Assembly (NCBI GenBank): GCA_016187945.1
Contig: JACPIT010000005.1
Location: 1,364,001-1,428,000 of the forward strand
Source: Opitutia bacterium
GTDB taxonomy: Bacteria; Verrucomicrobiota; Verrucomicrobiia; Opitutales; Opitutaceae
Length of the DNA: 64,000 bases
Reading direction: 5' to 3'
Positions within the stretch are counted from its first letter, which is position 1. Each line of letters begins with the position of its first letter. The position numbers and the translations under genes are program-made. Under the pieces are notes generated by a model that was given only the letters and a program-made list of their open reading frames with translations, made no database searches and was not told where the DNA came from. Below are positions 15,765-19,318 of this stretch, in pieces.

Positions 15765-16274
15765 ATGCCCACGAAGCGCAACGCCCGTTCCCGCCGTCCT
15801 GCTTCCGCTGCCGCCGCCGCGCCCGCGAGCGTGCGCGCGTTGCAGGGCGTGGTGACGATCACGCGGCAGGTGCATTTCAATTCCGCGCACCGGCTCTACA
15901 ACCCGACGAAGAGCCTCGAGTGGAACCAAAAGCAGTATGGCTTGTGCACGAACCCGCACTGGCATGGCCACAACTACGTGCTCGAGGTCTCGCTGCGCGG
16001 GCGGCCCGATCCGGTCACCGGCTACATCGTCGATCTCGCCGAGCTGAAGCGCATCCTGCACGCCGCCGTCGTCGACCAGTGCGACCACCGCAACCTGAAC
16101 GACGAAGTCGATTTTTTGCGCGGCATCATTCCGTCGACCGAGAATCTCGTCATCGCGTTCTGGAACGAAATCGAGCCGCACCTGCGCCACCTGAAGCACG
16201 CGCGGCTGCACTGCGTGCGCCTCTACGAGACGCCGCGCAATTTCGCCGAGTATTTCGGCCCCGCGGCGACTTGA
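15765..16274 (+). CDS. 6-pyruvoyltetrahydropterin synthase-type enzyme
   Basis: 169 aa with a 25-residue basic/Ala-rich leader, then a T-fold PTPS domain. The zinc ligands are His42 (NSAHRL), His67 and His69 (HGHNY). The candidate catalytic Cys61 sits in [11 protein letters not shown], six residues before the first His of HGH. That spacing resembles animal PTPS (CNNPNGHGHNY) and differs from E. coli QueD, where Cys is four residues before it. So 6-pyruvoyltetrahydropterin formation is at least as likely as the queuosine step. It is followed at 56 bases by FolE2, which would supply its substrate, and by an SDR. A TTG at 15750 is an alternative start. Confidence 0.87.
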
Positions 16275-16330
16275 AATCTTTCAGGGCGGTTACGTCCCCC
16301 GCCTTTCAACAACCAAAAACGTCCTCCGTC

Positions 16331-17302
16331 ATGAAACAGATGTATCTCCACCGCTCGGAATGCGGCAAAGAGCCACCGATCAAGCGCCGCTACGACCGCG
16401 CCTTCAAACCCGACGCCGCGTATAAGGCGACGCTGCCCGACATGATGGAAGTCGCGCACGAGACGATCCAGGGCGCGCACGTGCCGATCCAGCAGGTCGG
16501 CATCCACAACTTCAAACTCCCGCTCAAGTATCGCACGAAGAGCGGCGAGATCCTCACGCTCGAGACGAGCGTCACCGGCACCGTGTCGCTCGAGGCCGAG
16601 TTGAAGGGCATCAACATGAGCCGCATCATGCGCACGTTCTACGACCACAAGGACGAGGTCACGACCGGCGAGTGGATGGGCAAGGTGCTGAAAAACTACC
16701 TGCGCAACATCGACAGCAAGGACGCGCGCCTGAAGATCGCGTTTTCCTACCCGATGCTGCGCCCGAGCCTGCGCACCGGACTCGAAGGCTACCAGTTCTA
16801 CAATGTCGCCTTCGAGGGCGTCATGACCCGCGACGGACGCTACCGGCGTTTCATCCATTTCGATTTCGTCTACTCGTCGGCCTGCCCGTGCTCCGCGGAA
16901 CTCACCGAGCACGCGCGCGACAAGCGCGGCGCCTACGGCGTGCCGCACTCGCAACGCTCGAAGGCGCGCATCACGGTCGAGGAGGTCGAGGGAAAGAAAA
17001 TCTGGATCGAGGACGTGCACGCACTCTGCCTCGACGCGCTCCAAACCGAAACGCAGGTGATGGTGAAGCGCGAAGACGAGCAGGCCTTCGCCGAGCTCAA
17101 CGGCGCCTACCTGAAGTTCGTCGAGGACGCCGCGCGCCAACTCTACCTCGCGTTCGACGCCGACAAGCGCGTCGCGGATTTCCGCATCGCGTGCACGCAC
17201 CTCGAGTCGCTGCACTCGCACGACGCCGTGAGCGTGATCTGCAAAGGCGTGCCCGGCGGCTTCACGGCCGACTTCATGGACTTCGGCCAACTGCTGTGCT
17301 GA
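16331..17302 (+). CDS. folE2: GTP cyclohydrolase I, FolE2 type
   Basis: Protein of 323 aa of the FolE2/MptA family, which makes dihydroneopterin triphosphate from GTP without the zinc dependence of FolE1. Key parts visible are the central [10 protein letters not shown] strand, [11 protein letters not shown], and the active-site stretch [10 protein letters not shown], followed by an HSQRSKA block and [11 protein letters not shown]. The position directly after the PTPS-type gene and before an SDR suggests it feeds pteridine synthesis rather than only folate. The start codon ATG 16331 follows the intergenic stretch without a strong Shine-Dalgarno. Confidence 0.95.
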
Positions 17303-17312
17303 ACGCGCGCTT

Positions 17313-17433
17313 CGCGCGAAGCTCCAAGCGCCAACATCCAACCACCAATGAATAATCAAACTCTGGCCGCCGAATGGTGTTTGGTCGTTTGGAGTTTCTC
17401 TGGAGCTTGGGGATTGGAGCTTGGAGCTTCGCC
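17313..17433. repeat. GGAGCTT-type hairpin repeat
   Basis: The left arm GCGAAGCTCCAAGCGCCAAC and the right arm GGAGCTTGGGGATTGGAGCT plus TGGAGCTTCGC face each other around a central spacer. Each arm is made of near-direct GGAGCTTG units. The right arm stays open in frame with the SDR gene and could mislead start prediction. Confidence 0.7.
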
Positions 17434-17437
17434 GCGC

Positions 17438-17442
17438 GGAGG
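17438..17442 (+). promoter_or_regulatory. Shine-Dalgarno deciding a GTG start
   Basis: GGAGG six bases before GTG 17449 fixes the start of the SDR gene and excludes the upstream ATG 17374, which lies in a repeat. Confidence 0.8.
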
Positions 17443-17448
17443 ACAGGC

Positions 17449-18171
17449 GTGAACTCGATCAAGCAACGCCCCGTCATCCTCATCACCGGCGCGTCGCAGG
17501 GCATCGGCGCGGCGATCGCTCGCGTGTTTGCGGCCGAGATCAAAGGCGTGCGGCTCGCGCTCGCGGCTCGCAACGCGCGCAACCTGCGCGCCGTCGCGGC
17601 CGGGTGCACGAAGCTCGGCGCCGAGGCGGCGACGTTCGGGTGCGACGCGAGCGACGAGGCCGCGGTCGCGAAGATGGCGCGCGCGGTCGCGAAGCGCTTC
17701 GGCGCGGTCGACGTGCTGATCAACAACGCCGGCGCCTTCGCACAGGCGAAGTTCGTCGACACGAGCGTGACGGAGTTCGACCGGATGATCGCGGTGAACT
17801 TGCGCAGCGCGTTCCTCGTCACGCGCGCGTTCGTGCCCGCGATGATCGAGCGGAAGAGCGGCGATGTATTCTTCATGAGTTCGATCGCGGGACTCGGCGC
17901 GTATCCGAATGCGGCCGCGTATTGCGCCGCGAAATTCGGTGTCACCGGTCTTGCACAGGTGTTGCGCGCCGAGACGAAGGACGCCGGCGTGCGCGTGTGC
18001 TGCGTGCATCCGGGGGCGACGTGGTCGCCGTCGTGGAGCGGCAGCGGCGTGGCGCCCGAGCGCATCATGCCGGCGGAGGATGTGGCGCGCGCGTTTCTCG
18101 ACGTGTATCGGCTCGGCCGACGCACAGTCGTCGAGGAGATCGTGCTGCGCCCGCAGCTCGGCGATCTATGA
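17449..18171 (+). CDS. Short-chain dehydrogenase/reductase, candidate pterin reductase
   Basis: Classical SDR of 240 aa. The NAD(P) motif is TGASQGIG (13-20), the NNAG motif is INNAGAF, and the catalytic set is Ser in MSSIAG plus YCAAK. An Arg after the glycine motif and in the AARNARN region suggests NADPH. The third place behind PTPS and FolE2 suggests a sepiapterin-reductase-like step, but general 3-oxoacyl reductases look the same at this level, so the substrate is inference. GTG 17449 with GGAGG fixes the start; the frame upstream of it is repeat DNA. Confidence 0.88.
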   Translation: MNSIKQRPVILITGASQGIGAAIARVFAAEIKGVRLALAARNARNLRAVAAGCTKLGAEAATFGCDASDEAAVAKMARAVAKRFGAVDVLINNAGAFAQAKFVDTSVTEFDRMIAVNLRSAFLVTRAFVPAMIERKSGDVFFMSSIAGLGAYPNAAAYCAAKFGVTGLAQVLRAETKDAGVRVCCVHPGATWSPSWSGSGVAPERIMPAEDVARAFLDVYRLGRRTVVEEIVLRPQLGDL

Positions 18172-18481: not shown

Positions 18482-19318
18482 ATGAGCTTTCCACGACTCA
18501 GCTTGCTGCTACTTTTTCTTTTCGCGAGCCTCGCGGGGGCGGCGCGCGCACAGACACTGCTGTTTCCAGATTTCGCTGCGACCCCGGGCCTGAGCCTGAA
18601 CGCCGCGCAGGTCGTCAACGGCGCGGTGTTGCTCGCGCAAAATCAGCAGGACCGCAGCGGCTCGGTTTTCACGACCAGCCAATACGCGATCGGCGGGTTC
18701 AGCGCGGCGTTCGAGTTTCGCATCTCGAGTCCGGGCGGCACGAACGACGGCACGGCGGCGGGTGCGGATGGTCTGGCCTTCGTGATCCAGCGCGCGGGCG
18801 CCACGGCGCTCGGCGGCAGCGGCGAGGGCATGGGCTACGGCGCGCGCGGCGGCACCCCCGGCATCGCGAACAGCATCGCGGTGGAGTTCGACACATTTCA
18901 AAATTCCTGGGATCCGAACTCGAATCACCTCGGCATCGATGCGAACGGCAGTCTGACCTCGCTCGCGACGGCGAACATCGCGACCGCCTTCGATAGCGGT
19001 GCGAAGTGGTCCGTGTGGGTCGACTACAACGGCAGCGTGCTCGAAATCCGCGCGAGCACCGACGGCGTGCGACCGACACTCGCGACGCTGTCGCGCACGA
19101 TGGACATTGCATCGACGATCGGCGGCACGAGTGCATATCTCGGTTTCACGGCCGGCACGGGCTCGGCGTTCGGCACGCACGAAGTGCTGAGCTTCGCGTT
19201 TTCCGACACTTATCTGTCCGGCGGCATCGCGGCCGTGCCGGAGCCGTCGACGTATGCGTTGTTGGCGCTCGGACTCGGCTTGGTGAGCGTGAGGCTTTGG
19301 CGCCGGCGGAGAAGTTGA
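18482..19318 (+). CDS. PEP-CTERM protein with L-type lectin-like domain
   Basis: Secreted protein of 278 aa. The signal peptide is LSLLLLFLFASLAGAARA. The body resembles a legume-type (concanavalin-like) lectin domain: FEFRIS, GADGLAFVIQR, SIAVEFDTFQN, WVDYNGSVLEI and AYLGFTAGTG lie in the expected order. The C-terminus carries VPEPSTYALLALGLGLVSV followed by RLWRRRRS, the PEP-CTERM signal. It probably binds glycans at the cell surface after exosortase anchoring. A 17-base palindrome before the ATG may regulate it. Confidence 0.9.
   Translation: MSFPRLSLLLLFLFASLAGAARAQTLLFPDFAATPGLSLNAAQVVNGAVLLAQNQQDRSGSVFTTSQYAIGGFSAAFEFRISSPGGTNDGTAAGADGLAFVIQRAGATALGGSGEGMGYGARGGTPGIANSIAVEFDTFQNSWDPNSNHLGIDANGSLTSLATANIATAFDSGAKWSVWVDYNGSVLEIRASTDGVRPTLATLSRTMDIASTIGGTSAYLGFTAGTGSAFGTHEVLSFAFSDTYLSGGIAAVPEPSTYALLALGLGLVSVRLWRRRRS

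Follow-up and report, generated by a model that had tools for sequence, protein, structure and literature searches.

A conserved PTPS-FolE2-SDR gene cassette of Opitutaceae as a probable tetrahydrobiopterin-type pathway from GTP

Three neighboring genes of an Opitutaceae genome (Verrucomicrobiota) probably form a compact tetrahydrobiopterin-type pathway that starts from GTP and is fed by FolE2, a reading to which we assign a probability of roughly 0.8. The genes lie in tandem on the + strand of a 64-kb stretch of DNA (the window), itself part of a 5.47 Mb genome that is 95.7% complete (the source genome), in the order PTPS (15765-16274), FolE2 (16331-17302), and SDR (17449-18171). An earlier note on this DNA had described the three as neighbors; their coordinates and strand proved correct, and all have Pfam matches above the cut-offs (PTPS, 115.9 bits, cut-off 22.4; GCHY-1 for FolE2, 237.1 bits, cut-off 25; adh_short for the SDR, 176.4 bits, cut-off 26.6). 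We favor the pathway reading because the PTPS is animal-like, the SDR resembles sepiapterin reductase, the trio is conserved, and the source genome contains both a phenylalanine hydroxylase (PAH) and a pterin-4a-carbinolamine dehydratase (PCD). Counting against this reading, PCD also occurs in 8 cassette-free genomes, and PAH was not found in 17 of the 26 genomes that contain the cassette. At the level of sequence, the gene identities, the PTPS motif, its conservation, and the co-occurrence of the genes are clear.

From the known families we infer the individual catalytic steps, the product they yield, and the enzyme that uses it. FolE2 would convert GTP to 7,8-dihydroneopterin triphosphate, from which the PTPS-II-type enzyme would remove the triphosphate and rearrange the side chain to give 6-pyruvoyl-tetrahydropterin, using zinc held by three histidines and a Cys61/Asp107/His108 triad. 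The SDR, like the Chlorobium sepiapterin reductase, would use NADPH to reduce the side-chain ketones, yielding L-threo- or L-erythro-tetrahydrobiopterin. In the source genome the product would most likely serve phenylalanine 4-monooxygenase, with the PF01329 carbinolamine dehydratase acting in regeneration, and FolE2, as the only GTP cyclohydrolase I found there, would also feed folate and queuosine synthesis.

The first gene of the cassette encodes a predicted 6-pyruvoyltetrahydropterin synthase of the PTPS-II type, 169 amino acids in length, whose start at ATG 15765 is backed by a methionine (M1) that is invariant in 26 aligned sequences. Its signature, C61-T-N-P-H-W-H67-G-H69 (CTNPHWHGH, 15945-15971, + strand), places the cysteine six residues ahead of the first histidine. 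The earlier note had considered this spacing, along with an Asn-Pro pair, to be that of animal PTPS, which is borne out by alignment to the rat and human enzymes, N63-P64 matching the NP of both. The C-x5-HGH signature is not a chance occurrence, since it is carried by all 26 FolE2-adjacent PTPS (that of the source genome and those of 25 relatives) and by 80 of 80 named loci, these being the best 80 of 131 found. Three histidines, the cysteine, an Asp-His, and a C-terminal glutamate are invariant in all 26 aligned cassette PTPS, and we take their catalytic roles to be those of the animal enzyme. The QueD signature CxxxHGH, in which the cysteine would precede the first histidine by four residues instead of six, is absent from the window PTPS, as is the PTPS-III signature ExxHGH, Pro64 being found at that position. 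Cyanobacterial single-domain PTPS likewise carry Cx5HGH. PMC5041015 assigns CxxxxxHGH to PTPS-II (biopterin) and CxxxHGH to QueD. It also warns that one cyanobacterial PTPS, although more similar to that of rat, was not the enzyme responsible for BH4 synthesis, a point that counts against the reading favored here.

We also compared the window PTPS with characterized PTPS and QueD subgroups, and here too it sided with the animal enzymes, both by bit score and in a phylogenetic tree, consistent with its PTPS-II signature. Its best match in the PDB was rat PTPS (1b66, E 4.8e-29); among solved structures the scores were 104.7 bits for rat, 101.9 for human, and 93.7 for C. elegans PTPS, as against only 46 and 37 bits for the QueD-type structures 2oba and 4ntm. 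The window PTPS did not pass the NCBIfam QueD model TIGR03367 (62.9 bits, cut-off 89.25) or the broader model TIGR00039 (84 bits, cut-off 125.5). In the tree (FastTree, midpoint-rooted, 56 short sequences) the 26 cassette PTPS clustered together (support 0.60) and shared a wider clade with the PTPS of rat, human, and C. elegans (support 0.87); the two solved QueDs fell apart from these, as did two further types of PTPS found in the genomes searched (types B and C, see below). A structure model of the PTPS was of modest quality (pLDDT 80). When ranked by fold, the human, rat, and C. elegans PTPS scored Z 16.2-16.7 (rmsd 3.4-4.6 over 124-132 residues) and the QueD 4ntm scored Z 15.2 (rmsd 2.4 over 113 residues), a comparison that parts PTPS from QueD only weakly (Z 16.7 to 14.5) and is not evidence by itself.

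The FolE2 (GTP cyclohydrolase IB, 323 amino acids, 16331-17302, + strand) passed the curated model NF010200 (277.4 bits, cut-off 215), and its best PDB match was the FolE2 NGO0387 (E 5.8e-24). A genome-wide search of the source genome yielded a single PF02649 match and no match to PF01227 (FolE), leaving FolE2 as the only GTP cyclohydrolase I found. Among the 26 cassette genomes, FolE was present besides FolE2 in only two (G015 and G019).

The likely start codon of the SDR is GTG 17449, giving a protein of 240 amino acids (17449-18171, + strand); the upstream alternative, ATG 17374, is less likely because the orthologues align from about the GTG. The closest solved structure was the sepiapterin reductase of Chlorobium tepidum (2bd0, E 1.3e-41), followed by 3rkr (1.3e-33); 84 of 233 aligned residues are identical to 2bd0, and the likeness extends up to the C-terminal RTVVEEI-LRP--GD stretch. 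Residues R41, S145, Y158, and K162 are invariant in 27 aligned sequences, and presumably represent the catalytic Ser-Tyr-Lys (S145, Y158, K162) and an arginine after the second strand for NADPH (R41), a pattern common to many SDRs. An AlphaFold model (pLDDT 91.3) ranked 2bd0 first by fold (Z 34.2, rmsd 2.0 over 233 residues), a ranking that hardly separates sepiapterin reductase from other SDRs, with ties within 1 Z and a range of Z 34.2-32.0 over 50 rows. The assignment therefore draws on sequence and context. The NCBIfam matches of the SDR were all sub-threshold, the best by E-value being PRK07454 (176 bits, cut-off 234). SDRs are hard to assign, and we infer a sepiapterin reductase function for this one.

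To place the cassette in context, we use counts from 57 genomes, that of the window included; 26 have the cassette PTPS, and the 31 without it comprise 11 of the same family and 20 of other families of the order. FolE2 lies directly downstream of the cassette PTPS in 26 of 26 genomes (the source genome and 25 relatives), and adjoins it in 77 of the 77 named loci with room (from the best 80 of 131). An orthologue of the SDR (E 1e-50 or better, at 61% identity or more in the cassette genomes) was present in 24 of the 26 cassette genomes compared with 1 of the 31 others, co-occurrence counts such as these ignoring shared ancestry. At E 1e-50 no SDR orthologue was found in the cassette genomes G013 and G019, and the sole match among the cassette-free genomes, in G055, has 50% identity. 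Of the 67 named loci with room, again from the best 80 of 131, an SDR follows downstream in 61 (58 under the strict rule, and 3 more in which the SDR abuts the FolE2 match or shares bases with it, the overlap being 0-27 bases) and none does so in 6. The SDR gene is found about 3 kb downstream of FolE2 in G003 and G012, and on a separate contig, adjacent to a fragment of FolE2, in G034. The nearest of the best 80 of 131 named loci are from Opitutaceae and Opitutia MAGs.

Several features of the surroundings were also recorded. Upstream of the PTPS, on the opposite strand, are a gene of the metallo-beta-lactamase fold and a pyruvate kinase gene, both frequently retained at this position in relatives. 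The SDR is followed directly (18482-19318) by a predicted protein with, by eye, a PEP-CTERM-like tail, a homologue of which occupies the same place in four relatives of the same genus. A search for RNA regulators gave no Rfam match at gathering score within the 64-kb window. In G055, which belongs to another family, a PCD gene lies directly upstream of FolE2 (L193:4088-5474), and the SDR that is 50% identical to the window SDR lies about 4 kb from this pair, next to a gene that is NUDIX-like by eye. In each of two MAGs, CAMCHO01 (L139, L181) and CAMBVX01 (L131, L186), the cassette PTPS-FolE2 pair occurs at two loci that differ from one another, the second of which has no SDR downstream; duplication or mixed bins may account for this.

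The source genome encodes a phenylalanine hydroxylase, for which the earlier note had suggested looking: of two phenylalanine 4-monooxygenase models, its one PF00351 protein clears the cut-off of the first (283.8 bits, cut-off 247) and narrowly misses that of the second (254.6 bits, cut-off 264.75). On the same contig, an HPPD gene (389 bits, cut-off 277) lies about 6.5 kb and an HmgA-like gene about 8 kb from the PAH gene, the latter scoring 67.9 bits on its NCBIfam model (cut-off 510.75) and above the Pfam cut-offs. The source genome also encodes one PCD (PF01329). PAH is found in 9 of the 26 cassette genomes and in none of the 31 others; PCD is found in 22 of the 26, in 0 of the 11 cassette-free genomes of the family, and in 8 of the 20 from other families of the order. 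PAH thus fits a tetrahydrobiopterin-type pathway and cannot be its sole use, because 17 of the 26 cassette genomes lack a detectable PAH.

The folate genes of the source genome are separate from the cassette, with FolP, FolB, and FolK together on another contig. Neither FolB nor HPPK was found in 17 of the 26 cassette genomes (G001-G004, G006-G009, G012, G013, G019, G025, G027, G030, G032, G034, and G035), 11 of which are at least 95% complete; many Opitutaceae have possibly lost de novo folate synthesis. All 17 retain FolE2 and the cassette PTPS, and FolE2 therefore seems to be retained for a purpose other than folate, most likely feeding a pathway distinct from de novo folate synthesis. The missing FolB could also be taken to mean that the cassette PTPS substitutes for FolB in a folate bypass, the role of PTPS-III; however, HPPK (FolK), the next step, likewise went undetected in these 17 genomes, the source genome has FolP, FolB, and FolK side by side, and the motif is not ExxHGH, so that we consider such a role very unlikely.

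The earlier note had proposed pterin cofactor synthesis instead of queuosine, and we accordingly looked for queC, queE, and queF elsewhere in the source genome. All have a candidate: QueC (169 bits, cut-off 150.3) adjoins a QueE-like gene that scores 117 bits on the best QueE model (cut-off 300) and lies below every curated cut-off, and QueF sits on another contig than QueC. In addition, the source genome encodes a second PTPS, type B, with a CxxxHGH motif (CRFPHGH; L002:1489-1938, on another contig than queC). Type B reaches 80.1 bits on the QueD model (cut-off 89.25), is nearest among solved chains to Acinetobacter QueD2, weakly (40.9 bits), and forms its own clade in the tree; it was found in 18 of the 57 genomes. 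A type C PTPS is linked to queC in cassette-free genomes such as G017 and G020. Overall, 17 of the 26 cassette genomes contain a further CxxxHGH PTPS, this being type B in the source genome and 14 others, with G025 and G036 making up the remainder. Provided that type B is a QueD, the cassette PTPS would not be needed as QueD in the source genome.

Nine of the 25 relatives that carry the cassette differ from the source genome in that no PTPS besides that of the cassette was found. Seven of these, from seven genera, are at least 96% complete (G005, G013, G019, G027, G029, G030, and G032); the other two, G002 and G034, are less complete. QueC and QueF are present in all seven near-complete genomes and a QueE orthologue in six, so that in six relatives of at least 96% completeness the cassette PTPS is the sole COG0720 protein alongside QueE and QueC; QueE was not found in the single-contig genome G032. 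At a completeness of 90% or more, every genome with any PTPS also has QueC (36 of 36), and none of the 9 genomes lacking a PTPS has it. Note that this count took only the 41 strong PF06508 matches; 47 of the 57 genomes match at E 0.001, the rest of these matches being partial or weak and mostly in long frames, and partial sub-1e-4 matches in long frames of G014, G039, G045, and G053 were not counted as QueC. A 27-residue QueE fragment at a contig edge of G034, a sub-cut-off QueF of G011, and the 50% SDR match of G055 were likewise not counted. Below 90% completeness there are exceptions, with QueC and no PTPS found in G049, and PTPS and no QueC found in G012 and G034.

The simplest inference from a sole PTPS accompanied by QueC and QueF in seven relatives is that the QueD reaction, too, is carried out there by the cassette PTPS. 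The enzyme would then have two roles, making 6-pyruvoyl-tetrahydropterin for the SDR branch and 6-carboxy-tetrahydropterin for queuosine, an addition to the pathway reading to which we give somewhat less than even odds. The correlation of QueC with PTPS is in keeping with such a dual role, as is the case of G013 and G019, in which no SDR orthologue was found and queuosine would be the only evident use of the enzyme. Set against it are the motif, which is that of PTPS-II and not the CxxxHGH of QueD; the extra CxxxHGH PTPS of the 17 cassette genomes, which would be superfluous; the missing QueE of G032; the gaps in the less complete genomes; and the possibility of a non-homologous QueD. Furthermore, no alignment column fully discriminates the seven near-complete single-PTPS genomes from the other 19, a set to which G002 and G034 belong, and therefore the dual activity, if real, may be general. 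The same QueC correlation would be expected if the cassette PTPS served this family as nothing more than its QueD and the SDR had an unrelated function. We consider this improbable: the source genome holds another PTPS with the QueD motif, the SDR is sepiapterin-reductase-like and tracks the cassette PTPS, and the cassette PTPS falls below the cut-off of the QueD model, although type B does so as well. The pterin part of the earlier proposal thus stands on the animal-like PTPS, the sepiapterin-reductase-like SDR, the conserved trio, and the presence of PAH and PCD, and "instead of queuosine" is too strong; it is not warranted as a general statement about this enzyme, because seven relatives with QueC and QueF have no other PTPS. 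Queuosine genes with no other QueD, which the earlier note would have weighed against its proposal, are largely what these seven relatives contain; in the source genome the type B protein is present as another QueD, provided that it is one.

These data bear on how PTPS homologues are interpreted. Bacterial tetrahydrobiopterin synthesis is considered rare, with about 50 predicted cases according to PMC5041015, and the misannotation of COG0720 proteins is notorious. Conserved across a large part of one Verrucomicrobiota family, including genomes in which FolB and FolK were not found, the cassette would mark the pathway cleanly by gene context, and suggests that FolE2 can feed biopterin besides folate and queuosine. 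The single-PTPS relatives are natural genomes in which one PTPS apparently must serve two pathways. Tentatively, these lineages may possess a branch-point enzyme with the PTPS-II signature that provides both a biopterin-type cofactor and the queuosine precursor, in which case the published motif would not separate the two functions; the close homologues make PTPS specificity directly testable. PTPS-I/III hybrids are named in PMC5041015, the passages concerned containing no PTPS-I/II hybrid, and a literature search of titles and abstract starts found no PTPS-II/QueD dual enzyme. Our literature searches likewise found no paper joining Opitutaceae with tetrahydrobiopterin, or Verrucomicrobia with pterin and phenylalanine hydroxylase.

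Compared with known systems, the predicted pathway shares with that of animals its three-step logic and the motif and clade of its PTPS, which is closest to the rat, human, and C. elegans enzymes. It differs in its first step, here FolE2 (PF02649) but in animals a GTP cyclohydrolase I of PF01227, and in its SDR, which is nearest to a bacterial enzyme. That enzyme, sepiapterin reductase 2bd0, links the cassette to the biopterin pathway of Chlorobium tepidum through the likeness of the SDRs; the FolE2-PTPS-SDR gene order is that seen in Opitutaceae. QueD (PTPS-I) and PTPS share a substrate, and the fold of QueD is related to that of the window PTPS, which nevertheless lacks CxxxHGH and occupies a separate branch of the tree. 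With the PTPS-II subfamily of COG0720, as described in the relevant parts of PMC5041015 and PMC5445326, the cassette shares the CxxxxxHGH signature and the co-occurrence with sepiapterin reductase, predicted in the case of the window. The parts of PMC5445326 dealing with gene neighborhoods place FolE (PF01227) near PTPS-II and FolE2 near PTPS-IV, whereas the neighbor here is FolE2 in all 26 genomes and in all 77 named loci with room. The cassette thus looks like a known kind of system, the PTPS-II pathways, in an apparently new arrangement with FolE2 as the neighbor.
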